Origin: Fistulifera solaris
Lineage: Eukaryota > Bacillariophyta > Bacillariophyceae > Naviculales > Stauroneidaceae
Direction: 5' to 3'
NCBI GenBank assembly: GCA_030295235.1
Contig: AP026152.1
Coordinates: forward strand, 784,470 to 848,469
DNA length: 64,000 bases
This document shows, in pieces, positions 251 through 56,382 of the stretch. The translations under genes were made by a program, and so were the position numbers. The notes under the pieces were generated by a model that had not been told where the DNA came from, made no database searches, and saw only the letters and a program-made list of their open reading frames with translations. Each line of letters opens with the position of its first letter. Position 1 is the stretch's first letter.

Positions 251-3113
251 TTATACAACTCGTTTTTCAATTCGGTCCATTTTTCGCAAGACGGTAAGAG
301 TTCGCTCTTGTTCCGAACTAGACGTGATAAGAGATGTTACTTCACTGGCCGTCATCAATGTAATGTCTTCTCCATTCAGCGCGACTGCAATATTTAGAGT
401 AACAGGAAATGTTGTTAGAGTGTTGATGAAACATCTTTTCGTAAAAAATGTAATGAAAACTTACCCAGTTTATCACCCGATGAAAGCAAGCCCCTCATAC
501 AGCTTGTAGGACGCACTTTGGATACAAAAGTTCCAGGACCACTAGATCGATTAGCAAGAACAATTCCCAATTTACCGGAAGGGATTGTGACGACCACACG
601 ATAACGCTTGCCGAGTCGACTCGAGTGTGTGGAGACGCTGGCGAAAGAAACACTAGTAGTATCCGTGCCATCACAACCACTATCCGTGACGTGCAAATCG
701 TCATCATATTGCTTTAAATCCTCGTCCAGCCAGCGCGGCACAATCCCGTGATCAGCCGATCTTGAACGCAGGATCGACCTGTTACTCAAACGCTTTTCAA
801 AATTGTGGCTACCGGTGGACTGCAGTGACATTAGATCTGATGCATGGGATGCATCTGTGTAGTCTTCAAAAATCAACGGACCAGTGGATTCGATTTCGTC
901 CAAAATCCCCGCGTTAAAACTGTCTGTGCCGCTTTTTGGTTGAATCGAATGATGTGCTTTCTCAATGGTTATATCGTCCTTTAACTCTGTTACAAGAAGC
1001 TCTGTTGGAGAGGCAGCGCTATGTAGGATTCCTTCGGACGCATGGACACGTGGTGAATCGGATGATACTGTTAGAGAAGTTTCCGTTTCTGATGCGAGCT
1101 GCGGTTTAAGTATGCTCGCTGGATCAAGTGATTCCGCTGTAGTCTCTGCTTCTTCATACATCTGACGGGCTTCCCAAAGTACACTCCACAGCGGTCCGTC
1201 AGACGCATTTTGTCGTTGCCGAGGAGCAGTGGCCGTACCTCCTTCCGGGACAGAACGCTTCGACGTAAGACGAATCTTGAGCTCGTCTGACATATTTGGG
1301 GATGTCAATGGCTCCAAACCTTCTCTCAAATCGAAACTGTTCGAACGAGGCAAATTCGGAAACTCTCTCATCATGATTGCCTTGATATCACTATAGCCGG
1401 AAGCCTCCATAGCCACATTCAAACTATTCTCTCTAGTTTCAACGATGTGATCATTTTCGTTGACATCATGGAGCTCGCCAGAGCCGACGATAAAAGTAGA
1501 CGTAACAGGAGCACTCAGTGGGACTTCCTGTGTAGCTGCATTTTCACAGGGAACGCTATTGCCATCTCTGCCTACAATCAATGAAGCTGCTTTCTGTATG
1601 TTGTCGCCAACCGAGGGGTTCGAATTTTGGCTAGCAACGCCAGGCGACTTAGCCTCCGCAGGTACTGTCGACGAGTCGTCGTTTGTTGCACATAAATCAC
1701 CATAAGAAACAGTATCAGCGTCGATATCAGTCAGACTTGACGCGCGCTCGTGGGCTCTGTAGGATCGCAGTAGCTCTGAAGCCAGATTAAACGTTGAATT
1801 TCGCGGCTTTGATTTAATTGTCTGAGGTCTCGAGTTGTAAACACCGACAAACAGGTCTTCTTCTTCGTCGTCACTATTTTCCACTGATCCCTTTCGCGAA
1901 ATCATATTCAGTGCGCTTTGATACAAGTTAGGATAAATCTTGGCCGACCTGTTTTCATTCCCCGGTCGAGATGAGACCATCAATGAGCTGTCGTGGGGAT
2001 CACATGGGACTCTAACCCCAGGATCCCATTCGTTATCGACCGTGCTTTTCTCCACAATTTTCGTAATGCGAATTGCAGTACCTGTTCCACTCTGAACAGA
2101 ATTGCCATCGTGGATATGTATTTGATTTTGATCTGTTTCGACGGTAGAAGTAGCAGTTGGACCGTTCCGGATGCAGAATAAGTAGACTCCAAGAATCAAC
2201 AGGCCCGTAATTAGTGCTGTCAAGCCGACAATGATACCAGTAATATGCGGTTTCTTCTCTTTTCGTCGCGTTTTTCGATCGTTTCGGTCGATTCAAACGT
2301 TGGAAAGTCGACTGGGGTCGGGATATCAAACGAAGGAATATTGGACGACAGGTGCGGGTTTGTCGAAGGGGTTCTCTCCAGCAACGACGGCGCGAAAGAC
2401 GGTTGCGACGACGGCCTAGTAGAGGGAGAAAGCGAAGCCTTGGTTTCTTCCCAAACAATTGGCGGTCTCTCGTTCAGCAACTCTACTTTCACAACGTTAT
2501 TGAACGCAGGATTCTGCACCAATAAACTGCGGAAGCGTGCTCGTCCACCAGTGGTTCGCATAAACCCATGCTGTACCAAATCTGACACTTCCTCCTGGGA
2601 AATTTTCCACGCACTTGTAACGTAAACAGCTTGCTCTACGGTGACTTGCAAGATAACAGACCCGGGCACTACCACGGATTTCATCTCATCTTCGTTCGGA
2701 AGCTTCCGCCGCACACGAATTACAGAGCATTCCGTATCCAAACTAAATGTAGAGCTTATTTTGGTATCGACAGTAACTCCCAATGGAAGAGCAACCACAT
2801 TTACTTGATGACTTGTAGCCTAGAAGCAAAAGAAGAACCAGCGTTAGGGTTTCATAGAGTACGTAACGAAACTCGCGTTTCAAAACATAATAGACGCACC
2901 TGCTTATTAACACTTTTGCAGAAATGCTGCACGGCTTCCAAAGATGACGAATCACCAGCGAGTGATCCTCGAGTAGCCTCCACAAACTGTTCTTCCAGAG
3001 TAGAATCGGCGTAGAAGAGAGCCACGACAAGCTCCACCGTGAAAGGAGCAAGACTCTCGAGTTGACGATCCACTCTACTTCGCAAACGGCGAGCTTCCAG
3101 AGGTTTCAATACG
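251..3113 (-). CDS. single-pass membrane protein with C-terminal PDZ-like domain (5' end unresolved)
   Basis: The reading runs 3113-2900, intron 2899-2820 (80 nt), 2819-465, intron 464-385 (80 nt) and a last exon 384-251. The N-terminal part is unrecognised. It is followed by a Ser/Pro linker with the STRPSSQPS-type repeat common in diatom surface proteins, a hydrophobic span (ITGIIVGLTALITGLLILG, about 2250-2170) and a long acidic, Ser-rich region of about 500 residues. The C-terminus begins with a GKLGIVLANR strand and continues in the last exon as LVALNGEDITLMTASEV, the order of a PDZ domain. Between the linker and the membrane span the frame changes by one base in A-rich sequence near 2260-2275, probably an indel. 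The likely role is a membrane receptor or scaffold with a cytoplasmic PDZ end. The start is not identified; a further exon upstream of 3113 is likely. Confidence 0.6.
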
Positions 3114-3876
3114 CTGAAAAAGATGCAGAGTAAGCATCTAAAAAGTTTCTGTGGTTCTCTCATCTGTTCCGGCGTCTTTTTTTGATTGATGCTTGGAAAA
3201 GTAATTGCTTGAGTGTCAACAAACGAAAGAAATGATTTCGTTCGAAGGCTTTTCGAGGGTAAACAACATGATTTTGTTCGTCGAGTTCCACGCTGAGCAT
3301 TTTTTCCACGCTGGCGCACTGCTTATACTTATGCACCTCTTTCGCTTCTCCGTAACTTGTTCATTCTCTAGCGTCTTTGTTTCGCAGTTATATACGTCGC
3401 CTTCCAGCGTAACAACTCCGACATGACCGTTGCACGACATTAAATTGAGCTTCATCAAGAGCCTTTCTTTCCATTTTGTAAAAGCTTGCAATTGTGTTGC
3501 ACAATTACAATAGTCACATCTATAACATACGCAGCCTTATTGCGGCGCTGTTTTTTGTGTGCGCGAATGCGGCTGGTTTGCGTTTGCTATTCATTCATTC
3601 CTTTGATGAGTGCCGCATCAGCAGTTACTATCTCGTAACATGTAGATTACCTTTTAGCGACGACTCAAAGTATTTCAGTCCCGGGAAAGAGAAGGAACGC
3701 ATCCTTTTGCCCCTAGAGTCTAGTTCTCAACGTCTTAACGGGCCTAATTTGTACGGAGTAATAAATTCAATGAGAACTTTCTAATTTCCTTGTATTACGA
3801 CCTTTATGTTGATCATGGTTTGACTTTAACTTGCTGGCCTGCCGCACAGCCACAAAAAAGATGAGAGGAAGCAAAA

Positions 3877-5108: not shown

Positions 5109-7212
5109 TTACGAAGTCTGGGAACGATTACTCGATCGATAACTTTCCTGTAGGTGCGGATGCCCTTCTGTACTTTCAGTCGACCATTGGTATCGTTTGA
5201 GGGCTAGACCTTCTGAATCATCTACTGCTGTCCTCCTTCGAAAGCTACCTTGATTAGATGATGTCCCATTCGATACTCGGTTAGATAACGCCTCTCGTGA
5301 GACTTCGTCGTCGTCACTCAGTTCGGATCCGTCTTTCATAGAATCGTCTTGCACAATCAACGATCCAAATCTAAATCTCACTTCCATTTTAGCTTGTATA
5401 GTTTGTTGTAAATGATTTGCGGCACTTTCTTTCAATCTCGCTTTTTCATTTTGGGCGGCGCTTATCTTGGGTACGAAGATGAGCAATATGATCGATAGAC
5501 AACACACGGACACAGTCATGCAAGAAACGACGTAATGAACGAGAGGCAACTCCATTGTCAAGAACAACATTGGCACTGCCGTCAGAACCGCCTGCAGTAA
5601 ACAAACCATGCTGAGGGCAATGTATTTAGACTCTGAAAACTCGGATTGAATGTGCCGCGCCTCGTAGGCTTGCCAGTTCGCAATGATTACCGCACTTAGA
5701 TTGATGGCAACCAAAATAAACCCAAAGGCCTTTGATTGGACTTCACACACTCCATACGTGGATATGACGCGATTCCATTCATCGGTACCTGGGTGCGCTT
5801 TCCGCACGTACTGAACTGGATCCCAAATCGTCCAACAAGTCAGACAGAAGATGTTTGCGCCAAGTAAGCCGAAGAGCGGTAGATAGAGATCTCTGGGGAG
5901 AATCTTCAATCGCGCATTCGGAAAAGGATTGCGAAAGATTTGGTTTATTCTCCATGTTTTTGAAAACAAGGCCGAAAACATGAGGGTAAAACCGACTGAA
6001 GCCAGCCACGGAACACTTTGACATGCCCTGTCGGCCCGTGTCCCATCAAAGCTCGGATCTGAATCATCCAGTGAAAGTGGAATGAGCGCACTGCCACAAA
6101 CCAATGCTCCGAGACAAATGAGTAGCAAAAATTGAGGCTGGGACGCCACCACCACACGGACACCCGACATGCGACAGGTCCACGCCGCGAATGAGATCGC
6201 CAGCACGGCAATCACGGCAAACAAAGAAATCCCGAGAAACCGCAAATTCCCTAAATGATTGCAATTGACATTCGGCGGTGGCAATTCGATGGGCACTCGC
6301 ACCATTTCCATGAATGCTGTACCGTAAATGGAGTCTTCCGACGGGGGAGGGTTCTTGTACAACAAGTTGATTGCCTGAACCCCCATTTGGTAGGGATCTT
6401 GCCCCACCAGACCATTAACATGCCCCGACGCTAACAAATCAATTTGTACCGGTAATGTATCCGCAATAACGTATGTAATGTTCTTCCCGATTGTAGATAC
6501 AACGTATTCCCAACGGGTTGTATTAGGACGATACATTGGCCATCCCCCCACTGCAATGATGGCATCTAAATCCGGCATTTTCGAAAAATGTTCAACTTGA
6601 TCCAATGCTCTTTCGACGCTGTCCTGTGTATCACTCGGAGAGCTCTCAATTTCCACCCATTCACTGTCTTTCAAGAAATTTCGAACTCCATTGTTCCGCT
6701 CCAGTATATTGGGTGAAATCGCACTGACGATTGCGTAATTTCCGCCTTTTGGTTTTAATTGAAGCAGTATTTTCCCTAACGTTTCCCCAAAAGCAAAATT
6801 ATTGGTGCCGACGTATTGTAGACGACCCGAGAAAGGAGCATCGCTATCAAATGTAATGATAGGAATGTTTTTCGCTAGCGCTTCTTGCACAGCAATTTGT
6901 GTGATATTGTCGTCTAATGAGCTGATGGCGATTCCGTCAACATTTTCATCTATTTTCTTGCGAATAATCTCGAGTTGATCGAGGGCAACCGGATGAATAG
7001 GTCCTTCAAAGTCGCAAATCACTCCGAGATCGTTTGCACGGGCAGCGCATCCTTCGTGAACGATGGCGAAAAAAGGATTAGTGGTTTCTCGTTGCTTCGG
7101 TATTACGGCAAATCGCTTCGTAGTCATTTCTTGCGTGAGTTGCTGCTTCAACTGAAAGTCTCATGCCTTGCTGCAATAGCAAGACCGTAAATAGCGAATG
7201 TGCAACATCCAT
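5109..7212 (-). CDS. class C G-protein-coupled receptor with periplasmic sugar-binding-type ectodomain
   Basis: The ectodomain of about 300 residues has the type 1 periplasmic-binding-protein layout: KRFAVIPK first strand, GIAISSLDD, NIPIITFDSD, then LDAIIAVGG and GLVGQDPYQMGVQAINLL. This is the ribose/autoinducer-binding class. It is followed by seven hydrophobic spans carrying GABA-B-like (7tm_3) landmarks: PWLASVGFTLMFSALFSKTWR in the third span, a TIWDP loop, SKYIALSM before the sixth, and a final FVPK after the seventh. An acidic, Ser-rich cytoplasmic tail ends the protein. The main frame opens at 7151 on a TTG. An ATG at 7212 in a neighbouring frame begins MDVAHSLFTVLLLQQG, a good signal peptide, and joins if one extra base near 7130 is ignored; the span then holds exactly 701 codons. 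It probably senses a small extracellular ligand and signals through G proteins; the ligand is unknown. Confidence 0.85.
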
Positions 7213-8934: not shown

Positions 8935-11900
8935 ATGAAGTCACCTGACAGTGAACTGTTCGTTTCTGAATTCGAACGAGAAAACATGCTTGAGAAATCA
9001 AGCACTCATGGCTCGGATGCGTCGCTTTCCGAAGGTATCGGCCGAGGAGAAGGCCGCCTTGTTAATCGATCGAAAGTCATACTTTACGTCACCCTGTGCC
9101 TCGCTGGTGTTTGTATTTCGTTAGCTACGTTCTTTTCATCAAGAATCAGGAAGAAGCGACGTTTGAAAATGAGGTATGCGCAAAATCGTCGACAAAGAGG
9201 AGCACAGAATATGATTGGAACATCCTAACATCGATATTCTATCGTTTTCACAGTTTCGTAATCTTGCCAACGAAATCATCGGCGTCGCCACAAGCAACAC
9301 GGAAAACACCATTGGTCAAATTCGCAGTATATCGACGGCGTACGCATCCTACGCCGGCGAATCGTCAAGCCGAAAGTGGCCGAACATCACCTTGCCCCAC
9401 TTCAAGCACCAAGTCTTCGAATCAATCCGTCTCACTGGAGCGGAATGGGTGGCTTTTCTACCCAGGGTTTCCAAAGAGCAAAAAGCTGAGTTTGAAGCGT
9501 TCGTACAAGAAGAATATTCTCGTCTGGGCATGGCGAACACCTCTGCTAGTTTGCCCAAGGAAATTCGCAGCACGAACGGTAATTCAATTGAAAAAGACTA
9601 TTTCGCGCCAATTTGGCAGATAGCTCCTTTGGGTTCGAGCGCGGATGTTCTCCTCATTGACATGGACTCTTTTCCGTGGTTCAAGGAAGTCAAAGCCGAT
9701 GTGCTACGAACCAACCATGCTATCATGTCGCGGGTCATCGATATCGATCCTACTGTAGAAACTGAAGATAAGCACGAGTTCGATGACTTCCATCCACATA
9801 CCGTCATTTTGAATGGAATCCCACGATTCGATGGCGACGTTATAGTAGAAGACTATGAGAACGACGGATTCGGCTTCATCATGGCCGTCTTGCCTTGGGA
9901 AGTCTACTTTACGGAGGTTATACCTAGCGACACCTATGGTTTTCTCGTCGAAGTTGATGACCACTGTGGGAGCGTATTCACGTACGTAGTCAACGGCCAC
10001 TATGCTCAAGTGCTCGGAGAAGGGAAATTGCATAACAGCAAGTACGATTACCTCCATCAATCTGCTGACTGGTCTATGATAGCATCAGAGGGGAATCTTA
10101 TCGAGGGAATCGATAATCCAGAGCAGCTGACGTGCTATTATACCATTGATGTATATCCAACCGACGAACTGAAGGCGGTTTACACCAGCGGCGATCAGGT
10201 TGTGTTTGCAATTGCCATCCTAGCTGTCTTCGTTTTTATTGTGGGTATCTTCTTTGTTTACGACGTGGCTGTGCAGAGGCGACAGGACAGAGTGACGCGG
10301 GTTGCACGACAAACAGCGAAAATCGTCAATTCGCTTTTTCCCAAGAATGTACAACGTCGCATCATGGAGGAAGCTCAACAGGCTGCAGAAGCTGATGAAG
10401 AGAAGCAGCAAGGTTTCCGGTTCAGCGCAAAAGATCGTATCAAGAAAGCGTTGCTGAATAATGGTGCAGACGACCAACAAGGTCTCAAGAATGCTCCACC
10501 TATTGCCGATCTGTTCCCTTCCACAACCATTATGGTACGTGAACACGCAAAGCTACTGCCCTAACAGTCAGTTGAAAGTCTTGTTCAGGTGAACTCAACC
10601 TTGCCATCCGCCTTTTTAATAATGAATGACATGGCAGTTTGGAGATTTGGTTGGTAAGTATACGACCGAGATTGTATGACGTGCTTTATGGAAATACTTC
10701 GCAGGGAACTCACCTTTCGGCGGCATTTCTAAACATAGGATTTACTGCATGGAGCTCGATGCGAGAGCCGGCACAAGTATTTCAACTTCTGGAGACTATA
10801 TACTCCGAGTTCGACGAGATAGCTAAAAAACGACGCATCTTCAAAGTGGAAACAGTAGGAGATTGCTATGTAGCCGCCTGTGGTATTCCAGATCCTCGAC
10901 GTGACCATGTTGTAGCCATGGCTCGCTTCGCGCGTGATTGCAGAAATCGAATGATGGCTCTCATGACAGATTTGGAAACGAAGTTAGGACCCGATACAGG
11001 TGAACTTGGCCTTCGAATCGGTTTGCATAGTGGTCCCGTCACAGTGAGTGCCATATTTTGATTAAAAATTATTGTTGATCAAAACTTACATTTGAGTTTC
11101 ACAACAGGGAGGTGTTTTACGTGGCGAAAAGGCGCGCTTCCAGCTGTTTGGAGACACCATGAATACGACGGCTCGTATTGAAACCACTGGCAAGAAAAAC
11201 ATGATTCACCTCTCCGAGGAGACGGCCAATCTCTTACAAGCTTTCGGAAAAGGTCATTGGGTAAAGTTGCGCGAAGATAAAGTTAACGCCAAGGGCAAAG
11301 GCGAACTGACCACGTACTGGCTCATCAAAGATGATGGACTACGTTCAACAACATCCTCTGGAAATTCTCCAAGCGACGGGGAAGAAGATGCGGCTGCCAG
11401 TGACGAAGAAAATGATGGCGGCACACCAATTTGCTTAAAATCGACTTTTGCCGAGAAAAGTGCATTGACAGAGAAAGTACAACGTCTCGTGAAGTGGAAT
11501 GCCGAAGTTCTCGGCAGAATATTGAAAGAAGTGATTCAAAGACGAAAAGCGCGCAATAACCCTCCTGATTTTACTGCGGTTCGTCGCCTAGAAGCAGAAA
11601 CCAAGCTGGGTAGGGTACTTGAAGAAGCCACAGACATTCTAGCACTTCCGATTTTTTGATGCAGAGGCCGCGGCTCGTCAGGACGCGCTACCCCCTGTCA
11701 CATTGGACGAAATGGTCACCCAACAGCTCGAAGCCTTTATCCATGCTATCGCAATGATGTATCATGACAACGCATTCCACAACTTTGAGCATGCTAGCCA
11801 CGTTACAATGTCTGTTACAAAGCTTTTTTCGCGCATTGTTGTCCCTGAGGTTTCCGGTGATGAGCGCACCCTACACGATCACACCTACGGCATTACATCG

Positions 11901-13364: not shown

Positions 13365-16300
13365 ATGGCAGATGATCAAGCGGAGACGTTAAGCGGAGAA
13401 TCGCAAGAAATCCGGCAATATCCTTTGCCTACTCCTCAGAGAGCTCTTTCACCGCTGCGCGCTTCCGCTTATGACACGGAAACACCGCTACGCCGCAACA
13501 TCAAGAAACCTTCCATACCTCCATCGACGAGTAAATCTCGCAGCAAAAGTCGCAACAATGATAAAACAAGAGTGCGACGGAAACGTCGTCTTCCCGGAAG
13601 AGATTTTCAACATCCGCAAGACATGATCGCCGCTCATTGCATATCTGTATCATTGCCGCATCGCGTCGCTTTTGAACGGAACACGCTTTCTCTGGACGAA
13701 AAGACATACAATTTACATGCAAAAAACAAACGGTCTCCTTCTTTAGGTCACTTGTACTGGATTCAGAGGTTGCAAAGTGTCACAAAGATTCGGCAAGTGC
13801 AGTTTCAAAATGTTTTGCCGGAGCAATATCAAGCCATTTTACCAGATACGAACGAATTACCATCACCTGCTCCCACACTCAGTCACAAAAGACACGATTA
13901 CCACACCGTGCAGATGTGGGCTTTCCGAATGCGACGCCGGAGGAAATTGAGAGCAAACAAATCGAAATTCGTAACGAAACCGTGCAGGAAGAAGCGAGTT
14001 TGCGATTGATTGCTCTAGTGCCCGACTTAGGACGACAAGTCGGGGACGAAAAGACGCCTCTTCCATCAGCTCCTCCGAAATCAAAGTTTAGCATACTGAC
14101 GCCCCCGCTGCAGTCGATTCCGTCCGCCAGTCAAGGTTGGCGACCGCGGCTGTTTCATGATCGTCCTTCTTATTTAGAGTATCTATATATTCATTGCGAA
14201 GCACCGGATGGATGTCTGGCACTGTACAATAGTGAGCTGCAAAAAGTTAGCGAGAATTTTTGGTATTCTAAGGGTCAAAAGGGATCTTTGGTATTCAGTC
14301 GGGTTGCGAAGAGACTTTGCCTTTGGTGTGGCGACCACAGCAAGCTGCTGATGAATCGTTTGGTGTAGTGACGATTTCGTATCGACATTGGCCGGATTTA
14401 CAGGAAATTGATATGCCGGTTTATCCAGGCCGTTTCTCTTTGGAGAGATTGCAAAGCACAGTGTCCGGATCGGATGTGACGGATTCGGAAGTAAGCGTTG
14501 CCAAGAGAAAAGGAGTCATCGGCCGCATGTTTCGCACTCCGCAAAAGCCAACCAAGACGACTTCACCAACTCCCGGGTATGCATCGACTACTTACAAAGT
14601 GCGGATTTCGTTTTTGGGTGGAGATTTTCTTCAGCCATTGCTATCAACGCCGGAACACGACCATGAAACTACAACAAACAGACTGCTGGCTGATGTATCG
14701 GGCGACTTTGCTGTAGCCCTTGACAAACAAGACTCCGAGCCACCAGTCTCATCTGTGAAAAAACGATCACATTTGCTTCGGCTCCCGAAAGCTACGCAGC
14801 CTGCAGGCTATTTCGCGACTGCGGAGTTTCGTGAAGTGTTGTATTTGCCAGCTTCGTCACGCTACGAATATGATCGACCCCTCTCGTACTGGTCGTTGGT
14901 GAATCTGATGTTTCTTTACCCGCGTGTCTTGCATATCACCGGTAGTACTCTTAAGCATGAAGAGGGGGTTTCCGTTCGCATTCGAGCATGTAAGATTGAG
15001 GGCGAGCATGCTGTAACAATTGCCAATTCATTTTACAGCTCATCCTCTCAAGCGAATTTGCTTGATGAAATATATTTCGACGTTACTGCCGACAGTTTTT
15101 CTTCTGGTAACAGCGTCGTCTTGCAAGATGAATATAAGCTGAGACTACCGGCTTCTCTTGATAAGCGGTTTGTATTGCAAGTGTTATTGCTTAGCTCAAG
15201 TAAGGAAATACAAGGTGAGGTCCAAGTACCTCTATGCAGCTACTCATCCACAAAGTCCGGTAAAATCAAAGCGCTGACTCTTATTCCGAATGGTATTCAT
15301 AGATTAAAACTGGGCGACTTTCAGCTACAGCTCGAAAGTCGTCTTGTGAGCGCAGTTCACGTTTCCGATCCCTCCGTGGCCGCATGGCTTCGTGATTGTC
15401 CCCAATCATACACCGAATCAAGCGATAGGAGCCAAGCACCGGTTACAAAGGAAGGTCAATCCGATTCAGTTTTGTCTGAAGCTTCAGAAAGTGCAGTTAT
15501 AGCTCATTTCATGCCGCTCTTTTACTCTCATTTGTGGAACTTTACCCAGGGCAATGTAGAACCGGGGCTGTCGCAGTTATCCAATTTCTTTGAACTGCTT
15601 GATAAGAGCAAACAAGCGCTGGGCAAAATTCGTCTACCTGATTTTATTAAAAGCGTATTGGACGAATATGATGAAGTATTCATGACGAATAAGGAGGAGC
15701 CGATTCCCGACAACGAAACAACGGACAAATTTCACACCACTCAGGAAGACATCGTTGAAGATGATAATTCCAATGCAAGTCGGGTACCATTTCGTAGCAA
15801 CAAGAAAGGCCCTGTGTTCGGCAGGTTGGATAAACGTAGAAGAGAAACCATGAGAGCTCTGGGGCCTTCGGGAACTCCTTTTCCAGAACTGCTTTTGGGG
15901 CGTCGAAGACTGATCGAATGCGCTTGGAGGCAGAGTTACAATTGGGAAGCCAGGGTTTTGCGCTAACACCGTTTTTTGAAGACGATGAAACTATTGCAAC
16001 TATGCCATCTGTGCTTACCGACTCGCGGTCTTTTATTGATTCCAGCGCTGGTCATTCGGAACGTTTCCTCTTGGCTGGATCTAGCAACAGGAACATTATA
16101 AAGACTTCCTTCCCTGTATCAACAGGCTTACAAAGCGATAACAACGAAAACGAGTTTGCTGCGCGCGTGAAAACAGTTGCTAAAGTCATATTAGCCCCAT
16201 GCGTGGGTCCTTCTTTTCGAGCATTCTTTCAAGCAATATGACGTTGGGTGCTGCCGGCTGCTTTGAAACGCAGTCTGCAAACGAGGAATTCAAAGAAGAC

Positions 16301-23069: not shown

Positions 23070-24065
23070 ATGCGTCTCCCTGTCACTGTGCCTGTTTTTC
23101 CATTTGTGATACTTTTATCACAATTCGTTGCTTTGTCTGCGTTTAGCAGCACGAGAATACCTGAAAATGTCAAAATACTCATTCTACCCGGATTTGGGAA
23201 CGATATGAGTGACTATTACTTATCGCAATACCCCGAGGGATCGTTAGTGCAGTCGTTACGAAAACGCGGCTGGAACGAAGAGGTAATTCGTGTTTTGCCG
23301 TTACCCAAGCGCTCCGATTGGCTACAAGTATTCTGGAAGGGAGCTTTCGATCCGCAATTTTGGGCCGGTCAAGCTCCGCCAATTCGTCCGGCTTTTGCGT
23401 GGTACTTACAACGAATTGCCAATACTATTCAAGAGATGAGAAACAGCGAAAGCGAAAGCGGCAGCGAATCGATATCGACTACTTCACCCAAAATTATTCT
23501 AATAGGTCATAGTGCAGGAGGATGGTTGGCTCGAGCGGCATTGGGATATTTAAGTCAGTCAAATGGAAAGAAGAAGCTTCTCCTGCTATTCCGCTCGAAT
23601 GTATTCTCGGACTAGTCACATTAGGAGCGCCCCATCTTCCTCCGCCTCCGCAAATCATGGACATGACACGAGGTGCATTGCGGATTACAAACGAACAGTT
23701 CCCCGGGGCGTATTATCAATCATCCACAAATGAACCCGACTCGTTGTTTTACTTGACGGTCATGGGAGACGCCGTTCGGGGTGTGCAACAAGTACGAAAG
23801 AGTCCGTGGGAGCCGACGGTGGTGTCTGGATTCGCTTACAATTCGTACGAAGCGGTTTGTGGGCAAGCACCGGAAACAATTAACCTTGCCTGGGATCTTT
23901 CATTCTATCAATCGACCGGATCAATGGTACGGCTCCGATAACGTTATCGATTCGTGGCACGACGTCATGCTAGAGCTCGTCGGACAACAACTCGAGCAAG
24001 AGGGTAGCAACAAAAAACAGCCGTGGAACTTTGATTTTTGGAATCTACCCATCAAGATTCGGTAG
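23070..24065 (+). CDS. alpha/beta hydrolase (lipase-like), probably defective
   Basis: The protein starts with a hydrophobic signal sequence (MRLPVTVPVFPFVILLSQFVALSAFSS), so it enters the secretory route or plastid. KILILPGFGND is the first strand and loop, and IILIGHSAGGWLARA is the nucleophile elbow with the catalytic Ser. The end contains FHSINRPDQWYGSD, which should carry the catalytic His. The frame changes by one base in the AAAGAAGAAG stretch near 23570. It changes again near 23880-23890. At that second point homologues I know from plants have about 17 residues around GDGVVP, which include the catalytic Asp; here YEAVCGQAPETINL runs almost directly into PGIFHS. That segment therefore seems deleted, and the enzyme is likely inactive or the assembly is wrong here. 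Confidence 0.65.
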
Positions 24066-25247: not shown

Positions 25248-25899
25248 ATGTTCCTGGTAAGCAACTCGGTTGCCACCACAACCAAGAAGATCGGCATTGA
25301 GCAAAAACGCCGTGATGAGAAGATCAAAAGCAAAATAGTCAATTCGAAGGCAAAATGGTCCAAGGATATAACCTACACCGACAGCGAATCGCTCCGATCA
25401 GGGGGGTTCGGAGAGCCTATCGATCACGAAGAGAAGCGCCTCCATCAAGTCGGGTTCACCTCGAGAAGAGTCGGATGGATGTGAAAGAGTTACGAAAGAA
25501 ATGAGAGCAAAGGCATACGCCATCGCGTTCATTGAAGGTCAGCTCGACAAGTACCATGCTGATATTGAGACATGCACCAAGAGATACGAGGCTTGCAAGC
25601 AAATCATTTTAGCAAGAATGCAGAGTCGCTCGGCTGTTGGGATCATCCTCGCCATTAATGAATACAAGAAGCTTTTGGCCAAAGAAGCAACCGCAAGAAG
25701 AGTCGTTGAGCAGCTGGAGTCGCTTTTGTCGGAAGTTGTGGACTGCATCGAGCTTCCTGGAACAATTGCACAATACAAAGCCAAGGCGAAGGAAATTGTC
25801 GAGGAAGCGCCGGTTGACCCTGAAACCTTGCCGCTGGCGGGCGTAACAGGAAAGATGGTGTCAGATGAACTAGCGAAGCTCGGCATCGCTCGAAACTAG
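25248..25899 (+). CDS. conserved protein of unknown function, copy 1 of 2 (one-base break)
   Basis: This is the paralogue of the gene at 31857-32507. The N-terminus (MFLVSNSVATTTKKIGIEQK) is basic and likely disordered. The C-terminal 130 residues are helical and carry the shared core RSAVGIILAINEYKKLL, then ATARRVV, QLESLLSEV and a PVDPETLPL ending. The two halves sit in frames that differ by one base. The join is at the run of six G at about 25399-25404; dropping one G gives 217 codons, the same length as the intact paralogue. No enzyme motif, membrane span or targeting sequence is visible, so the function is unknown. The helical core suggests a protein-binding role, which is inference. Confidence 0.65.
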
Positions 25900-26691: not shown

Positions 26692-27407
26692 ATGAACGAC
26701 TTCGAAACGATGAACAATCCATATCGTGCCGCCATTTACCTGAATAATGTTTCCGTCACCCTTTCTGTGCTCTTCAAGCACTGAATACACTGAGAGATGC
26801 TGTTCAGATCGTGTCCAGTCTTTGCTCTAGAGATCTACCCGAGTCATCTCTTGTGAACGCTACATTAGTGAAAGCCGCACAACGGCTCGCAAATCCTATC
26901 ACCGATGATCCCCCCTTTTCGACGAAGGAGGTTACAGTAATCGCCGAAGACACGCTGGTGTATTCGAACTTCAAATTTGCTCTTCACGGTTACTATGTTG
27001 TTCATATCGACAGCCTCGATCAGTCAAGGGGTTGTTACGACCAAGATCAGGCGATCGAGTGTGCCACAATTCTTTATAACTTGGGCATGACTTACGAGCT
27101 AGTCAACAAGCAATGCCCAATCGAAGCGCTTGTTAGTTTCTCTTTGGCGTATTCACTGCTAGAGCCAACGATACAAAAATGGCTCGAGGGCACTTTACCA
27201 CAAGACAAAAATCGCATCGATGAATGCGACTGGTGTCGCATCTTACTGGTCGGATTTCTTTCTTTGCAGAAACTGAAAGAGTATGCGTTACAAATAGGGA
27301 TTGACGAGAATCACGCCACCAGTATCCTGGAAATTATGGAGTTTGCTATCATCTTGTTTCAGAGGACGGATAGTACAGTGGGCGAAGTGGTAGCTGCAGC
27401 CGCTTGA
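26692..27407 (+). CDS. small helical-repeat (TPR-like) protein, function unknown
   Basis: About 238 residues, rich in helix. YRAAIYLNNVSVTL, followed by ALQALNTLRDAVQIV, and later ECATILYNLGMTYEL, then EALVSFSLAYSLLEPTIQKW, look like degenerate TPR helices of a family frequent in diatoms. The ATG at 26692 precedes the first helix. A base is missing in the CCCTTTCTG stretch near 26759-26765; allowing for it the length is exactly 239 codons. There is no signal peptide. The likely role is a protein-interaction adaptor, which is inference. Confidence 0.55.
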
Positions 27408-28330: not shown

Positions 28331-29828
28331 ATGAGCAACGAAGGAGAAGAGCCACAACCGTCCTCGTCCTCGGAATCGCAACCGATCGTTGCCGATCCGT
28401 CGCAACAAAGCACATGGCCTATTTACAGGATGCGGGAGACACCGCAGCATCTGCGAGATCTCTATTCAAGTGAACAAGCGACTCCTATTGTGTTGAAAAG
28501 GAAAAATGGAGTCCTTCTGTATCTGTGGCATCGTTATTAAACGACACAAACGCGTAGGAGCGAGTTCAAGATGAGCTAAGCCTGGGGGCTCAATAACATG
28601 TTCATTCATTGCGATATTATAGGTCGCTCGAAAGAAGCTATCTTCGAAACCGTTAAGATGATCTGGGATTTACCAGCCACGGGTGTAGAAAGGATTTCTA
28701 CTTACAGCGAAACTGCATGTTCACCGGACGATCTACTTCGTTTGTTTCAGACAAAATATCCTGATGAATCGATGGAGTTGTGGTTGATGTTAAGGTCAGA
28801 TGAAGAATATGCTCATGTCGAGCGACATTCAAATGGTTATTCCATGTATTACGATGGGAATGATCTTGAAAGGTTTATAAGCGGCATCAGTGAGATGCCA
28901 AATGTTCGGGAAATTTACTTTAACCATATGAAATTTAAACTCCCCCTCGAACTGACACGAAAAGCGCTCTCAACACCGGTTCATTCGATACGCATCTGTC
29001 TTGATGATAAAGACTTACAAGGACATGATTTCAGATCAGTGAACATTGTGGCGAAAGAAGTTTCTTTTGTAGTCTTAGCAGACTGCCTTTTTCCGAGGCA
29101 ACTAACGGCTAACCTTCTCCGCCAAATGGGACGCTCGGGGCAGTTAGAAAGCATGGACTTTGCGTTTTGCTGGAATCGTCGACCCCAGAATTGCAGAAGA
29201 TGTCGTGACAGAGCTTATCAGGATTATTGAAACAAACCAAAATCTTAGAGTGGTGAAATTGCGATCTCGAACGTTCAAAGTCTGTTGGGGCAATCACGCC
29301 GAGAAGATTTTGGCTGCAATGAAACGGAATCGAGGACTGTGTTCTGTCAACATGGATGCAGAATATAAGAGACATTATGTGTTTCCCATTGATATCGATC
29401 CAGAGATTAATCGGCGCTTCCTTGTATTTAATCGCATCTTTCGTCTTACCCAAGAACCTCAGTCAGCTCGACAGCCATTGCTGGTACTTGTGCTCAACCG
29501 GAAAATGAGAGATAAATTTCGAAGCCATGCGTCGCTGTTGGAGCAACATACCGATACTCTCTGCGAGCTACTTCAGGAATCCTTGGGTAGTTCGCTAGTC
29601 GTCGCGAATCAGAGCTTGGGCGACGCTACCTCAACATCGATTTCTGACATACCAGCACCTATGAAGAAAGCGCGGCAAAGGATCAGGATACAACCAGCAA
29701 GGACTGCAAAGACACAAGAATCAACTCGTGAGCAGCTGACTGCAGGTTCACGAGGTATCACCGCGACGACTCGTAAACGAATCACTCGAAAACAACCCGC
29801 GCGAGCCGCAAAGCGTCGAAGACGATAG
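28331..29828 (+). CDS. LRR-like (RNI-type) repeat protein, copy 1 of 2, frame broken
   Basis: It starts MSNEGEEPQPSSSSES with a Ser/Pro-rich disordered head, then STWPIYRMRETPQHLRDLY. The middle has repeating Leu-rich segments (MPNVREIYFNHMKFKL, LTRKALSTPVHSIRICL) like ribonuclease-inhibitor-type repeats seen in diatom proteins. The C-terminus is very basic (RKRITRKQPARAAKRRRR), suggesting a nuclear or nucleic-acid location. Three frame problems occur: around 28537-28597 (stops in every frame over a short stretch), and one extra base in the TTTT run near 29165. The gene is either mildly decayed or affected by base-call errors. The decayed relative at 33841-35230 shows the same order of segments. 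The function is unknown. Confidence 0.55.
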
Positions 29829-35230: not shown

Positions 35231-35389
35231 GTTTCTTTTTTCAAATAAAGGTCGCTTTTATAGGCAAGATACAGAATCTTCATGTTGCATTGAGATACTT
35301 ACAGCATCCCACACCTCCTCCCGCAATGTCAGAAATCTGGAAGTGGTGTTTGGATTCAAACAAGAAGCCTGTGGCATTTCCTTCAGTGT

Positions 35390-36715: not shown

Positions 36716-36888
36716 GTTTTGAGATAATCCGCCACACGAAGCGTGCTTTTTATTTGCTATCGAGCTAATTTTTGCATGATAGGGTTGAATAACAGCTGAG
36801 CGATACAAGGTTTTCGATTTAGAATAGCAACGCGTGCAATGGTTACTGAAAACATTACTTTAATAGTTGATCTCGCTGAGGAGCCGCC

Positions 36889-43073: not shown

Positions 43074-45622
43074 CTAAAACTGAAGGCACGCTGGACACTT
43101 GCCCACGCATGTTTCCCAGGCACATCGCTCCTCCCAAGCTATCTCGGGGTTATTCTTACAATCATCAGGACAAGTTTCGTCCGTAATACAATCGGAACAT
43201 TGCGCACACGAATCCCACCCGCACTTCGTAGACCACGGATCAGGGCTTGTGGAGCACCAATCACGACAGTTGCCGTATTTTGCCATCAAAAAGGATCGAA
43301 TTCAATGAACTTTCGTGTATTGGGCCACTTCTCCCAGTCAACCTTGATCGGCGTGCGTGGGTGACACAGGTGCACAACGTACAGATCTCGCAACACGTTC
43401 ATGGCGTATCCCGCTCGATGTAGCTCGTGAAACCATGAAACCTTGTCGTACCCGTATCCGCGAATGGCGGTCCAAAAGCGTGGAATGCCGGGTAAATAGC
43501 CGATGACATACGGTTCGTATGCCAGCTCCCAGTCAATAGGATAGTATGGCGCTTCCGTGAAGTTGTACCACATCTCTGATTTTGTGGATCCTTGGTTTTT
43601 AGGTGTGACATCATGATAGATAACCCAAGCTGCATTCTTCTCGACCATCTTTATGAGATCGTGTTTGGAATTTGGCAAGTCGCTTTCGGTTGCCGACTTT
43701 TCTGGGGCGTAATTAATCCCACCCGGGCAAACTTCGAATGCAGGTAACACAAACAGGGTTCGTTTGCGGCGCATCTTGTCGACAATTTGAGGATCTTTCT
43801 TCATTAGCCCTTTAATGGTGGCATGAGAATTCGGAGTGACAATGAGGTCGACATCAAGCAACAAAAAATAGTTGCTACCCGTGTTTTCCAGCGCCAAATT
43901 GCGAAGAGCGTTATATGGATAAGTCCACTGTATAGACGCTTCTGGATACGGCGAGAAATCAACAATCTTTTCCATCAGGACGTGAACGTTACTTTCACGC
44001 AAATACCAAGCAATTGTGTGATTTGATAGCCACGACGATATCAAGTCTACATCTTCAGAGCTCTGAACGTAAAGCGCAATCGAACCGGGTCCATTCCATT
44101 TTCGCAGGTTCAAAATAACATTATCAAGCTTTGCGAGGCTTGCAGAAGCCTGCATCGTTATCACGATATGATCGTCATCTTGAAGCTCGACTTGTCGATG
44201 AATGAAATTGACAAGGGTTTTACTTTGAGGCTTGGTGGAGTTTAGCGACAGGGCATGACTCTCAAGTTTCTCCCATTGTTCTAGTAGCTGATCTTTGTAC
44301 GTTCGAGGAGTCCATACCTTTTCGATCAGCATCTTTTCACGCCACCAGATTTCCCAGTCCTTGACTAAGCTTCGATTGGTCAAGTCGTGAATGGTTTTCT
44401 CCATTGCCTTCGCCGAAGCAAGTGTCATAGATTTGCCACTTTTGTGAGCCTTGCCATTGCTGTCGAGTCGGCTGCTGCAGGTAGCGCGGGCCCACCAATA
44501 TTCGGTCTCATACTTGATTTTTATCCCTTCATGCTCCTGCCCACCAGCAAAAAAACCATCTATGACAAAAGAAAAGCGTTTAGGAAAGCTCTCATGGATG
44601 TATCATCTGATACATCAAGAACAATCGAGGCTTGAACGTTAAAATGACTTTGACTTACATGGAACGTCACCGGTTCGGCGCATATCGCCATCTTTTGCCA
44701 TGCATGTGAACATGTTACGCGGAGTACGATGCAATTGCAAATTGTGATGGTTCCAAGCTGCTAATAGCAAATGCTCGGGAGATTCAATAGCATGAAATGT
44801 CTCATTGGAATACTCATTTCGAAGGAAAGGCGGGAGCACATCCAGCGCGTCAAGAATGGAATCCTTGCTCACGGTGAAATGCCGATCGTTGATGGCTCCC
44901 CAGTCCTCGCCTTCCGGGACGACAATTGCATTCTTCGGGAAGTCGGATATGTCATACGGGCACATGTAGAACTGGTCCGTTCGAGTAACGATGAACCTGT
45001 CGTACTTCTCGGTCAGCTTCAATTCGCGGATGTGTTCCGCCAACCAGTATCGCATCATGTTCTGAATGGCACCAGACGTCTTGTGTCCTTTCACGCCGCC
45101 AAGAACACCTGCTTCTCTAGCTAGTCCTTGGATGCGAGGCTCAACAATTTCTCGCCACCCGTCGATGCGCAACGTGTCTGTGTTTGAGTTAGCCATGAGC
45201 CATGAATGTTGACGCTGCTGTTATCAAATGACTTGTCTGACCTCAAAATTCACGCTGAACTTACCGAGTGCATCTCCCCAATCCTTGTACTCCTTCTCGC
45301 GAAAAATGTACTTGGCTCGTTTCCAAAGAGACGCGTCGTTGTATTTGTCATCACTCGCGCCCACCACCAGGCCCAAGTCGGCTTGATTATAGTCAAGAAC
45401 ATTTTTGTAAAGAGATTCCCATGCTGGTTCACCGCAACGAAGATTTCCGATCAGGAATACAATAGTGCGATTCCCTTGTTGTGGTTGCAGACGAAGTCCT
45501 TTTGGAGCAAAAATCATGCGCCTCATCAAAAATGTATTACAAAGCCAACTTAAAATCATTGCGCCGATCAGAGCCAAAAGGAAAATTCCTTTGTGTCCGT
45601 ACTTTAGCTGAGAAGAACGCAT
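43074..45622 (-). CDS. GT49-like (LARGE/B4GAT1-type) Golgi glycosyltransferase, tandem copy A, with 12-Cys tail
   Basis: Exons 45622-45265, 45177-44659 and 44559-43286, with introns of 87 and 99 nt. The start gives a short cytoplasmic head and one signal-anchor span (GIFLLALIGAMILSWLCNTF), as in type II Golgi enzymes. An N-terminal domain has FLIGNLRCGEPAWESLYKNV and KYDRFIVTRTDQFYMCPYDI. The C-terminal domain resembles GT49: LENTGSNYFLLLDVDLIVTPN with a DxD metal motif, FVLPAFEVCPGG, EPYVIGYLPG and VVHLCHPRTP. It probably transfers sugars in the Golgi; donor and acceptor are unknown. The frame ends at TGA 43286-43288 after EFDPF. A second frame starting at the overlapping ATG gives MAKYGNCRDWC and a tail with 12 Cys, ending at 43074. 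Copy B has the same arrangement. The joined three exons hold exactly 717 codons. Confidence 0.75.
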
Positions 45623-48785: not shown

Positions 48786-51456
48786 CTAATAAAATTCAAG
48801 ACACGCCGGACATTTGCCAACACAGAGGCCCCATGCACACCGTTTTTCCCACGGTACGCTGACGGTTTCTTTACAGTCCTTAGGACAGGTTTCATCGTTG
48901 ATGCATTCTCTGCATTGAGCACACGAATCCCACCCGCACTTGGTAGACCACGGATCAGGGCTTGAAGAGCACCAGTCGCGGCAGTTGCCGTATTTCGCCA
49001 TCAAAAAGGATCGAACTCAATAAACTTTCGCGTATTTGGCCACATATCCCAGTCAACTTTGATCGGCGTGCGTGGGTGACACAAGTGCACGACAAACAGA
49101 TCGCGCAATACATTCATTGTATATCCAGCCCGGTAAAGTTCGTGAAACCATGAAACCTTGTCGTATCCGTATCCACGAATGGCGGTCCAAAAGCGAGGTA
49201 CGCCCGGCAGATATCCAATCACGTAAGGCTCATAATTAAGCTCCCAGTCGATTGCGTAAGAGGACGCGTCCGTAAAGTTGTACCATTTCTCAGACTGAGT
49301 AGAGCCTTGGTTCTTCACATCTACATCGACGTAGAAAACCCAAGCAACGCCATCTTCAACTTTCTTTACCAGTTCAGCCTTGGTTAGAGGCAAGTCATCC
49401 TCGGTCGCAAACCTCGTGGGTGATTGAGTCATTCCATCAGGGCAAACTTCGAATGCTGGCAAGACAAACATAGTCCTTTTCCGGCGCATTTTATCAATAA
49501 TTTGAGGATCATTCTTCATTATCTCCCTCACTGTGGCATGAGAGTTAGGAGTGATAACCAAGTCCACATCCAGTAATAGGAAATAATCACTACCGGTGTT
49601 CTCGAGTGCTAAGTTGCGAAGAGTGTTGTATGGATACGTCCACTGCATTGTCGGCTCGGGGTAATCAGAAAAATCGGTAATCTTCTCCATCATGATGTGG
49701 ACATTGCATTCTCGTAAGTAGTACGCAATTGTGTAATTTGATAACCACTCGGAGAAAAACTCGACATCTTCCGCGCTTTGGATGTAAAGCGCGACGGATC
49801 CTGGCCCGTCCCATTTACGCAGGTTAGAGATCAAATTGTTTAGCTTCGCTTGGCTCGCAGAAGCTTGCATCGTAACAACGATATCATTTTCGTCCTCCAG
49901 TTTTGTTTTGCGATGAATGAAATTCACAAGTGTCTTACTCTGAGGCTTGGTGGAATTTAGCGACAAGGCATGGCTTTCGAGTTTCTCCCAGTGTTCCAGG
50001 AGCTGATCTTTGTACGTTCGAGGAGTCCATACCTTCTCCGTCAACATCTTTTCACGCCACCAGATTTCCCAGTCCTTGACTAAGCTTCGGTTCGTAAGAT
50101 CTTGGATGGTCTTTTCCATGGCTTCTACCGATGCCATGGTCATAGTCTTGTCTTTTTTGTGCGCGTTCCCATCGCGTGTTAGCCGACTACTGCATGTTGC
50201 CCGTGCCCACCAGTACTCGGTCTCGTACTTGATCATAATACCCTCATGCTCCTGGCCGCCTGCAAAAAAGCCATCTGCCATGCATTTCGACGATATTGTG
50301 TGAGTTATAATTGACGACGTATTACGCATTACCGATTGCTTCGAGGCGCAACGATTCTCACGAATTTTACTTACAAGGAACGTCACCAGTTCGGCGCATA
50401 TCGCCGTCTTTTGCCATACAGGTAAACATGTTACGCGGAGTACGATGCAATTGCAAATTGTGATGGTTCCACGCTGCTAATAGCAAATGTTCGGGAGATT
50501 CGATCGCATAAAATGTTTCGTTGGAATAATCGTTGCGGAGGAAGGGCGGAAGCACATCCAGAGCGTCAAGGATGGAGTCTTTGCTCACGGTGAAATGTCG
50601 ATCGTTAATGGCTCCCCAGTCCTCGCCTTCAGGGACAACAATGGCATTGTTCGGGAAGTCGGAAATGTCATACGGGCACATGTAGAACTGGTCTGTTCGA
50701 GTAACAATAAAGCGATCATACTTCTCGGTCAGCTTCAATTCACGGATGTGTTCCGCCAACCAGTATCGCATCATGTTCTGAATGGCACCAGACGTCTTGT
50801 GTCCTTTCACACCTCCAAGAACACCTGCTTCCCGCGCTCGCCCTTGTACGCGAGGCTCGACGTTTTCTCGCCATCCATCAATATTTAACGTGTCTGGCAG
50901 CCTATGGTGAGAGAAAAAGTCACGATCATACAAAATGTTTACTAAAAATAAGAAACGTACCGAGAGCATCTCCCCAGTCGTCGTATTCTTTCTCGCGAAA
51001 AATGTACTTGGCTCTTTTCCAAAGAGATGCATCGTTATATTTGTCATCACTCGCACCAACCACAAGGCCCAAGTCGGCTGAATTAAAATCAAGAACGTTT
51101 TTGTAAAGAGATTCCCATGCTGGCTCACCACAGCGAAGATTTCCGATAAGGAAAACGATCGTCCGATTTCCTCCTTGTGGAAACCGAAGGCCGCTTTGAC
51201 CAAGTTTTATGCCGTTTTCCAGCAACAATCGACAGACCCAAATCATGTGAATGCCTCCGATGAATAAGATGAGCAATAGAAGCACTCTGTGTGCAATTTT
51301 TCCTGGAGAAAATCGAACTTTCGGTGCGTCTCGAGAACATTTTTCATTCGAGTCGTCAAGGCACGGTAAGAAGGGTTCTTCCAGCCCGATTTCTTTTCTT
51401 GGTTTTCTTGTATTCATCACCATCTTAGGCGGACTTCGACTGGAAGAGCGAAGCAT
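48786..51456 (-). CDS. GT49-like Golgi glycosyltransferase, tandem copy B, with 12-Cys tail
   Basis: Exons 51456-50961, 50893-50375 and 50274-49001, with introns of 67 and 100 nt at the same places as in copy A. Exons 2 and 3 have exactly the same length as in copy A (519 and 1274 nt); exon 1 is longer, with a cytoplasmic head of about 50 residues before the span (IAHRVLLLLILFIGGIHMIW). The catalytic domain shows LENTGSDYFLLLDVDLVITPN (DxD), FVLPAFEVCPDG, EPYVIGYLPGVPRFW and VVHLCHPRTP. The three exons total 763 codons. As in copy A, the frame stops after EFDPF at TGA 49001-49003, and the overlapping ATG opens a frame with 12 Cys (48786-49004). An uninterrupted frame through all three exons supports a functional gene. 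It likely arose by tandem duplication with copy A. Confidence 0.78.
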
Positions 51457-52697: not shown

Positions 52698-53890
52698 ATG
52701 GATCGCTTTCCGCCGAGTCGATATCCTTTCTCGGACGTAATGAACACGAGCGATATCGTTCAATTTATTACCCTTACTGTAGATGATAGCATCAACTCTC
52801 AAGCTGTCAGTCTCTTCAAAGAATATTTTTTTTCTCTTCGAGTTGACGATAAATGTCGTCGTGTTCGGTTCACTTGCTTTGTATCGTTCGATGCGAGCGA
52901 ATGCGACGCAATTCAATTCTTAGTCGGCAAAATGTGGTCGAATTTGGACATCACACGTTAAAACATACACGTCTTCCTTCGAAACAAGATATCCAAGATG
53001 CCATCGATAGTTTGCTACAATGCGGAGTCCCGAGACGCAGCTTAGGAGGTTTTCGGGCGCCCTATTTGCATTACAATCAATCTACTTTTGACTTCTTGTA
53101 CGAGAATCAAGTTCCCTACGACTCTACCATCATTCCGCGCGACGATGACACATCGCAGTTCGGTCGGGAAAACCAGTGGCCGTTTACTTTAGAACACGGC
53201 TTTGTGAACAGTAGCGTCAAGTGCGGCAATACAGGTACCTGTGTAGCCGACAAAGCATATCCTGGCATGTGGCAGGTTCCTCTCTATCGATGGTATCACG
53301 TGAATAATACCTTTCTAAACGATGCTATGGACTATCGAACGTTCGAGGAGGATGTACAAGCCAACTTTGAGCGAAGATACTATGGAAATCGGGCGCCGTT
53401 TGGTATTTATTTGCACGCAAACTGGTTAGAAGAGAACGGCAGCGCTCTTAAGAAATGGATTCAAAAGACGCTTGACACTTACGACGATGTATACTTTGTT
53501 ACCAATATGGATTTGCTGCAGTGGATGAAAAACCCTGTTCCCAAGGCCAAATATAGACCACCGTCTTGTGAAGTGGAGGATTATCAGCAATCAGGTGCGT
53601 TCCATACCGCTGGCCCTTTGGCTCAACCGTTTCCTTTTGCTCCCTCTACCCTGTCACCGTCAGCAACACTGAATAACAATGATCAAAGCACCGTCTCGAC
53701 ATACCCAAAATCAATCATTCAAATCACCGACACGAGCCCCGACGAACCGACCATCGCCAATCTTCGTTCGCCAACTGAATTGGCGATTTCTGCACAACTC
53801 GTTGCCGCGATTGCACTTGCAATCTTCGTCTTACGAAGGATTCGACGTCAGTCAACAGGTTCGATCCCAGAGCCTTTGGTATCAAACTAA
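52698..53890 (+). CDS. chitin-deacetylase-like polysaccharide deacetylase, membrane-anchored
   Basis: It shows the NodB/CE4 order: QFITLTVDDSIN with the catalytic and metal Asp pair, then GHHTLKHTRLP with the HxxxH-type metal ligands, GGFRAPYL, and PYDSTI. The C-terminal half follows animal chitin-deacetylase-like proteins closely: APFGIYLHANWLEENG and DDVYFVTNMDLLQWMKNP. A Ser/Pro/Thr-rich stalk and a C-terminal span (LAISAQLVAAIALAIFVL) follow, with basic residues after it, so the enzyme is probably tethered outside the cell or in the endomembrane system. It should remove acetyl groups from chitin-like polysaccharides. One A is missing in the AAAA run near 52930-52933; with it the length is exactly 398 codons. 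The ATG at 52698 has no signal peptide behind it, so an upstream exon is likely. Confidence 0.8.
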
Positions 53891-54985: not shown

Positions 54986-55659
54986 GGTGAATAATAGTTG
55001 ATGAAAGAAGTCGAAATAATAGTAACGAGAAAGCGAAACGAGATACGATTCGACGGCGTTGCGTAATTGTGAGAAAGTTCTCGGCAAGGATGAGATCCCA
55101 GCCACGAAAGTTCAAATGAAAGGTGTCACCGTTGGCGAGTTTGTCTTTGGAAGAGAGTCGAGAATCGAGAAGAAAAGATCTTTGCTGAGCCTCACTCGTG
55201 TCAACAGTCAAAAAAGGTGATGTTTTTGGTGTCAAGCCGACGGACTCAACTCCGCGCCGCGCCGCTGCTGGCGCTTTCGAGTGACTACAATCAAAGCCAT
55301 ATAAACTCCGCACCTACGTCAGCCACATCGAATGAATCTCGAATTGCCCTTTTGCTATCGTTGAAAGAGTACAAAAAGATACCCATCCTTCCGACCGCGC
55401 GATTTTCGAATTTTCGCGCGAAAATTTGATCACGAACACGATCACTCGCGACTCGCAAGGTCCACGAGATTTGCACGAGTTGCACCCATGCAATGATGAC
55501 GTGTCGTAGTAGAAAGCATTCTGAAGCGCGCGATGACTCACGATTTTCACGCCAACACATCACATTTCCATCATTTTCGCACGCACGAAGCGGATGGAAA
55601 GAGCACGATCTTTCGTCATAATTTCGTTCTCGCTGTTGCTTATACAAAAATATAAAACA
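54986..55659. promoter_or_regulatory. shared promoter region of the beta-rich gene and the light-harvesting gene
   Basis: Two start codons point away from each other across 674 bases with no repeat and no accepted open frame. The stretch just before the light-harvesting ATG is AT-rich (ACAAAAATATAAAACA), where a TATA-like box could lie. A shared, light-responsive control is possible but only inferred from the layout. Confidence 0.4.
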
Positions 55660-56382
55660 ATGAAGTTGTCTCTTGCCTTTTTCGCTGCTACCGCAGCAAC
55701 TGCTGCTGCATTCGCACCCAGCTCGTCTTCCTCTGCAAAGACTGTTCTTCGAATGTCGGAACCCGTCAACACGGAGTCTGCCGTTGAAACAGCGGCTCCT
55801 GAGAAGCCCGCTGCTCCTGCCGCACCTGTCGTTGCCCCTATCAACGGATGGGTCCCTGATGCATCCAAGCCTGCCTTCGGTCTTCCAGGAGCGATTGCCC
55901 CTCTAGGATACTTTGATCCTTTGGGTTTGATGCCCAAGAACATTCTTGGTGCCAAAGCGTTTCCGTGAGGCCGAGATTATGCACAGTCGTGTCGCCATGA
56001 TGGCTACCGTCGGTTACCTTCTCGCCGAAAACACGCCTACCATCGCGTACGGCTTCGATCATCCCGTTATCGCCAACGATATGGTTCCTGATGTTCCAGG
56101 AACTGTCCTTTTCCCTTTTTCTTGGCCATCAACATTGCTGAAGCACTTCGTGCTAACGCTGGATGGGTTGAGCCCGGACTTGGTGCTCTTTTCACTCTCC
56201 GAGAGAAGTATTACCCCGGAGATCTCGGCTTTGATCCCCTCGGCTTGAAGCCCAAGGATGCTCAAGGCTTCGCCAACATGCAAGCCAAGGAATTGAGCAA
56301 CGGTCGTCTCGCCATGCTCGCCGCCGCCGGCATGTGCGCACAAGAACTGGCTACCGGAAAGCCCCTTTTGGATGCATTTTAA
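55660..56382 (+). CDS. fucoxanthin chlorophyll a/c light-harvesting protein
   Basis: A plastid protein of about 240 residues. It starts [20 protein letters not shown], an ER signal followed by the AAFAP cleavage motif of diatom complex plastids. The first chlorophyll-binding helix reads [16 protein letters not shown] and the third [15 protein letters not shown], giving the conserved E-H-R and E-N-R ligands. [18 protein letters not shown] lies before the last helix. It binds chlorophyll and fucoxanthin in the thylakoid antenna. The subfamily (Lhcr, Lhcf or Lhcx) cannot be decided here. Two one-base changes break the frame: an extra A near 55952-55954 (CCAAAGCG) and a missing T in the run near 56113-56117. 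With both corrected the length is exactly 241 codons, so base-call errors are more likely than decay. Confidence 0.85.

Follow-up and report, generated by a model that had tools for sequence, protein, structure and literature searches.

Do the one-base frame breaks that recur across genes near one chromosome end of the allodiploid diatom Fistulifera solaris belong to the organism or to the record of its genome? The window, meaning the whole 64,000-nucleotide stretch analyzed here, covers positions 784470-848469 of contig AP026152.1 (hereafter C32). We propose, with a probability of about 0.9, that the frame breaks are mainly residual one-base nanopore consensus errors, which would exist in the record but mostly not in the organism; judged from sequence comparison, the genes themselves are probably intact in living cells.

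We take the window as part of the nanopore assembly Fsolaris_ONT_v03 of this species, that of Maeda 2022, which is said to be based on one MinION run. This assignment fits the published figures, since the assembly that holds the window totals 51.7 Mb in 61 contigs, and the table and reference list of an earlier publication give 62 sequences and 52 Mb for F. solaris and name Fsolaris_ONT_v03 (PMC12159174). The homoeologous contig C33 is collinear with the window and 88% identical to it (65.5 kb of aligned blocks), and the C33 copy served as the control for reading the window genes. A second homoeologous pair, C38 and C39, was also studied; all 15 tested F. solaris oligonucleotides for two apt genes, taken from PMC13276009, match the expected member of this pair exactly, which supports the species assignment.

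Frame Breaks in Two Homoeologous Chromosome Pairs

The sequences compared were 114 kb of C32 against 136.5 kb of C33 and, for the second pair, 40 kb each of C38 and C39. A gap was a candidate break if its length was no multiple of three, if it was isolated by 12 columns or more, and if it fell in a coding-like open frame that spanned at least 100 codons in one of the copies. Validation was by a flank test, in which each side had to contain at least 60 aligned bases and at least three substitutions, half or more of them at third codon positions. In total, 387 isolated gaps had a length other than a multiple of three. Of these, 49 passed this test, 281 were non-coding, and 57 were located in open frames but failed; the latter are counted nowhere. 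A length of one base was found for 47 of the 49 validated breaks versus 146 of the 281 non-coding gaps (Fisher p = 3e-10). In a looser count of open-frame gaps, which required isolation by 20 columns and lengths of 1-9 but no flank test, 72 of 82 gaps are one base long. None of the 33 candidate premature stops passes the same flank test, whereas neutral decay would be expected to leave about 18-33 stops beside 49 frameshifts. The value of about 18, which is scaled by all 272 one-base non-coding gaps instead of the 146 isolated ones, is the fairer expectation; the value of 33 is too high because clustered gaps are absent from its denominator. The validated one-base events are distributed over both chromosome pairs (35 on C32/C33 and 12 on C38/C39), and both copies of each pair are hit.

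These observations bear on fractionation, i.e., the decay of one copy of a homoeolog pair after hybridization, under which the breaks would be true mutations. Neither of the marks of a decaying pseudogene, premature stops and mixed gap lengths like those of non-coding DNA, was found, with the exception, in gap lengths, of the gene at 28580-29828 described below. The excess of one-base gaps, the absence of validated stops, the conservation of codon phase on both sides of the breaks, and the presence of breaks in both homoeologs, four of them common to both, all speak against fractionation, and we regard it as very unlikely to be the main cause. Thus, the original prediction, which was made from the window sequence and favored consensus error over decay, is supported by the one-base length of the breaks, their enrichment at homopolymers (see below), their occurrence on both homoeologs and in a second chromosome pair, and the absence of validated stops.

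When the two copies are taken together, the 47 validated one-base events in approximately 128 kb of aligned open frame correspond to one event per 2.7 kb; if all of them are errors, the lower bound of the error rate is about Q34. At least one validated one-base break is present in 19 of 40 and in 10 of 19 gene-like units, together 29 of 59.

Sequence Context of the Breaks

The validated one-base events are strongly associated with homopolymers: 31 of 47 are located in or adjoin a run of at least three identical bases (background 25%, p = 5e-9), and 17 of 47 are found at runs of at least five (background 2.2%, p = 8e-17). The context C-T(3 or more)-C, on either strand, is present at 7 of the 35 events on C32/C33 (background 3.5%) and at 5 of the 12 on C38/C39 (background 3.8%); this motif was picked after viewing the C32/C33 events, hence the independent check is provided by C38/C39 only. 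Within the window, the two copies of a near-identical subtelomeric repeat of 546 bases (61618-62163 and 63052-63595) differ by eight gaps, six of them of one base, versus seven substitutions; homoeologous non-coding DNA has approximately 0.055 one-base gaps per substitution.

We suggest that run length, especially in C-T(n)-C/G contexts, would be miscounted when the nanopore signal is converted to bases, presumably at the base-calling step. A miscount within a coding region would shift the frame in the record and not in the cell, and the reads would then be expected to show unbroken frames. The same site may sometimes be miscounted in both homoeologs, because homoeologous chromosomes have a common sequence context, and such a double miscount would mimic independent confirmation.

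Frame Changes Shared by Both Homoeologs

Three frame changes in the window are present in both homoeologs.

9129..9140, plus strand: cyclase/phosphodiesterase gene, frame change in both homoeologs at TTCTTTTC; substitutions switch codon phase within 11 bases, and the copies align without a gap.
13886..13903, plus strand: frame change in both homoeologs of the DOCK gene at CAAAAG, from substitution phase.
14255..14325, plus strand: second frame change in both homoeologs of the DOCK gene, with CAAAAG inside the interval, from substitution phase, with no gap between the copies.

Together with a site at 20886-20900 of the C38 stretch, they constitute the four known shared frame changes, all of them without a gap between the copies. 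At these sites, the substitutions change codon phase over intervals of 11 to 70 bases, and each site needs one extra base, as worked out by hand. At the C38 site, one frame is open across the switch, and the sole basis is substitution phase. The scan for shared breaks, which needs gap-free stretches, found two places and did not recover 9129-9140 and 14255-14325, which came from the earlier list, therefore the total is at least four.

The motif CTTTT[C/G] or its complement, chosen after the fact, is present in all four shared-break intervals; among random coding intervals of comparable size, 4% to 19% contain it. On the sense strand, it reads CTTTT in the cyclase gene and AAAAG in the DOCK gene (twice) and in the C38 gene. 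This variation favors a strand-blind reading error over a ribosomal mechanism.

An alternative explanation is that the cell bypasses the shared breaks through frameshifting, either programmed or tolerated, at runs of four. It is consistent with the four changes in both homoeologs, the conserved coding on both sides, the common short motif, and the single missing base in every case. However, the sense-strand form of the motif varies (CTTTT once, AAAAG three times), and the same context can be broken in only one of the two homoeologs, for example at 15879; we consider the probability of such a bypass to be almost negligible. Extremely unlikely, too, is that the shared frame changes are real and bypassed by slippage of the ribosome or polymerase at runs of four, with the diatom tolerating breaks in conserved genes. 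Programmed frameshifting as a general cause of the breaks was ruled out by the strand-blind motif. Since the shared breaks look like context errors, agreement between homoeologs is no proof that a break is real.

Breaks and Genes in the Window

The original prediction listed thirteen one-base breaks in the window, a list that the comparison with C33 confirms in part. Two of these sites, 9132 and 14310, are the frame changes common to both homoeologs that lack a gap between the copies. Another eight are one-base differences opposite an open frame in C33, namely (with the position of the gap in parentheses) 2265 (2263), 11654 (11650), 15897 (15879), 16196 (16214), 25401 (25400), 52932 (52929), 55953 (55952), and 56115 (56119).

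2253..2274, minus strand: one-base break in an 861-codon gene (gap at 2263); flank test passed, tblastn.
11650..11656, plus strand: cyclase/phosphodiesterase gene, one-base break; frame open over 520 codons in C33, tblastn change from frame 2 to 3, flank test narrowly failed.
15870..15900, plus strand: DOCK gene, one-base break with its gap at 15879 (five-T run in C33); flank test passed, tblastn.
16190..16235, plus strand: one-base break in the DOCK gene (gap at 16214); tblastn change from frame 3 to 2, flank test narrowly failed.
25400..25406, plus strand: one-base break adjoining a six-G run; flank test passed, tblastn.
52868..52931, plus strand: deacetylase-like gene (Polysacc_deac_1 hit below the cut-off only), one-base break with its gap at 52929; flank test passed, tblastn.
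55952..56119, plus strand: two compensating one-base breaks in a light-harvesting gene; flank test passed at both.

Six of the eight sites pass the flank test, and the remaining two fail narrowly, with third-position shares on one side of 4/9 (11650) and 6/13 (16214). The tblastn comparison of C33 proteins shows a change of frame at 2263, 11650, 15879, 16214, 25400, and 52929. The light-harvesting gene is aligned with C33 by tblastn in a single gapped piece because the breaks at 55952 and 56119 compensate each other, therefore the evidence for these two breaks comes from the DNA alignment and from frame length (143 vs. 282 codons). The C33 copy of this gene matches Chloroa_b-bind (4.9e-37), and the shortened window frame has no Pfam match. 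Introns at the one-base sites were considered and ruled out, as C33 is continuously open there.

It had also been argued that the corrected genes have lengths that are exact multiples of three. This argument is circular and carries no weight, because opening a frame guarantees a length divisible by three. The corrected lengths of the cyclase and DOCK genes additionally span candidate GT...AG introns in both copies (near 9173-9253, 11044-11107, and 17758-17817).

The remaining three listed sites are not one-base breaks.

5112..7130, minus strand: intact G-protein-coupled receptor gene (Peripla_BP_4 and 7tm_3), from Pfam and the C33 alignment.
26765..26766, plus strand: TPR-like gene (TPR hit below the cut-off only) that differs from C33 by 10 bases, from the alignment.
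28580..29828, plus strand: gene broken near 29165 (16-base gap), from the C33 comparison.

Position 7130 is merely the start of the receptor frame, which has a conserved ATG and is aligned with C33 in a single frame over 673 of 673 residues. At the second site, listed as 26762, the gap comprises 10 bases and is a candidate true frameshift. The gap closest to 29165 comprises 16 bases, and among the gaps listed for the C33 copy of this gene many are not divisible by three and vary in length; the gene is perhaps truly decayed, and its C33 copy is probably a real pseudogene.

Five further breaks were absent from the list of thirteen. One of them is the frame change at 13886-13903 in both homoeologs, and the others, at approximately 440 and at 23567, 43290, and 49005, are as follows.

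436..493, minus strand: frame break near the 3' end of the 861-codon gene, with a one-base gap at 440; C33 open, tblastn change from frame -2 to -1, without flank-test validation.
23534..23570, plus strand: one-base break (gap at 23567); tblastn, without flank-test validation.
43289..43292, minus strand: one-base break in a Glyco_transf_49 gene, cutting off 72 C-terminal residues; these 72 residues are 93% identical in another frame, flank test passed, Pfam.
49004..49007, minus strand: same one-base break in the neighboring Glyco_transf_49 paralogue; 73 residues 93% identical in another frame, flank test passed.

The C33 copy of the gene at 23534-23570 has its own break opposite 23220, which the flank test validated as a C33 break. 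In the two Glyco_transf_49 paralogues, the same base is missing at the same place (43290 and 49005), and both C33 paralogues have that base. The twin breaks are either a context error made twice or a single mutation spread via gene conversion.

With respect to the identity of the genes, the receptor at 5112-7130 is a fusion of a bacterial-type sugar-binding domain (Peripla_BP_4) with a class C 7tm_3 domain. The gene at 8960-12656 encodes a cyclase fused to a cyclic-nucleotide phosphodiesterase, with Guanylate_cyc and PDEase_I found in the C33 copy and CHASE below the cut-off. The DOCK assignment is based on a marginal DHR-2_Lobe_A match (26.8 bits in C33 and 25.7 in the window, cut-off 26). 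Pfam searches at E up to 0.001 gave nothing for the 861-codon gene, a 309-codon gene, and the large DOCK frame. A transfer RNA search and an Rfam search of the window returned no match in either. The window ends with a telomere array.

63664..64000, plus strand: TTAGGG telomere array at the contig end, which marks a chromosome terminus.

In this array, TTGGGG, TTAGGGG, and other variant units are mixed into TTAGGG.

Evidence Against Consensus Error and the Uneven Distribution of Breaks

Several observations weigh against consensus error. First, 16 of the 47 events are located at runs of one or two bases. Second, deletion bias is often reported for nanopore homopolymers, which is typical and not strictly defining; here 25 insertions, 21 deletions, and one unassigned event were found, thus without a deletion excess. 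Third, a tandem array at 35383-36714 has 23 mismatches and no gap between its copies in 968 bases. This array is built of 364-base units in 3.7 copies (35383-36726). Fourth, 16 one-base events, 14 of them counted against C33, are concentrated in 6 kb upstream of the window (C32:746170-752070), mostly at short runs; this dense stretch may be either poorly covered or truly decayed locally. Finally, outside the dense stretch 15 events are assigned to C32, three to C33, and one to both, an imbalance between the two copies.

The first of these points bears equally on another alternative, namely recent real one-base slippage mutations in culture, e.g., due to weak mismatch repair, that would be too young for other decay to have followed. 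Such mutations could account for the homopolymer enrichment and for the lack of validated stops; however, events at runs of one or two would not fit, 29 of 59 gene-like units would have to be broken at once, and in four genes the two copies would need to have changed at one and the same site. We therefore regard recent slippage as having next to no probability.

The imbalance between C32 and C33 outside the dense stretch agrees with fractionation. The same holds for what look like true lesions in the gene at 28580-29828 and, as a 10-base gap, at 26765. Unequal gene content between the subgenomes of F. solaris has been described, the high-GC subgenome retaining more unpaired genes (PMC5935921). 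However, the break-rich copies C32 and C38 are those with the higher coding GC, and biased gene loss would thus point in the opposite direction to their excess of breaks. The published comparison concerns the same species and its homoeolog pairs, and it deals with the presence or absence of whole genes, whereas we observe one-base breaks that, in the samples studied, are more numerous on the high-GC copies outside the dense stretch. Consensus error remains our explanation for most of the breaks, and the lesions at 26765, in 28580-29828, and in the dense upstream stretch may be true.

Implications for the F. solaris Genome

The same effect has been described for other long-read assemblies (PMC12007338, PMC8147415). 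In bacterial assemblies, one-base breaks linked to homopolymers likewise turn intact genes into apparent pseudogenes; the bacterial study used reads and reference sets, whereas here the control is the homoeologous chromosome, and errors common to both homoeologs appear. In nanopore diatom assemblies before polishing, indels affect gene prediction and were corrected with short reads, according to PMC8147415. That report concerns the same technology and group of organisms as ours, but two other diatoms, and polishing was done and measured there.

One annotation of F. solaris contains 26,808 genes (PMC12159174), and earlier work counted 9007 pairs and 2441 unpaired genes, i.e., 20,455 genes (PMC5935921). 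The difference is in line with gene splitting, and other causes are possible. The use of homoeologs as a built-in control, combined with the stop-codon test, is transferable to other allopolyploid assemblies, with the caution that a break seen in both homoeologs may still be an error. The artefact is ordinary in kind and useful as a warning: pseudogene counts, estimates of subgenome gene loss, and annotation derived from this assembly would mislead.

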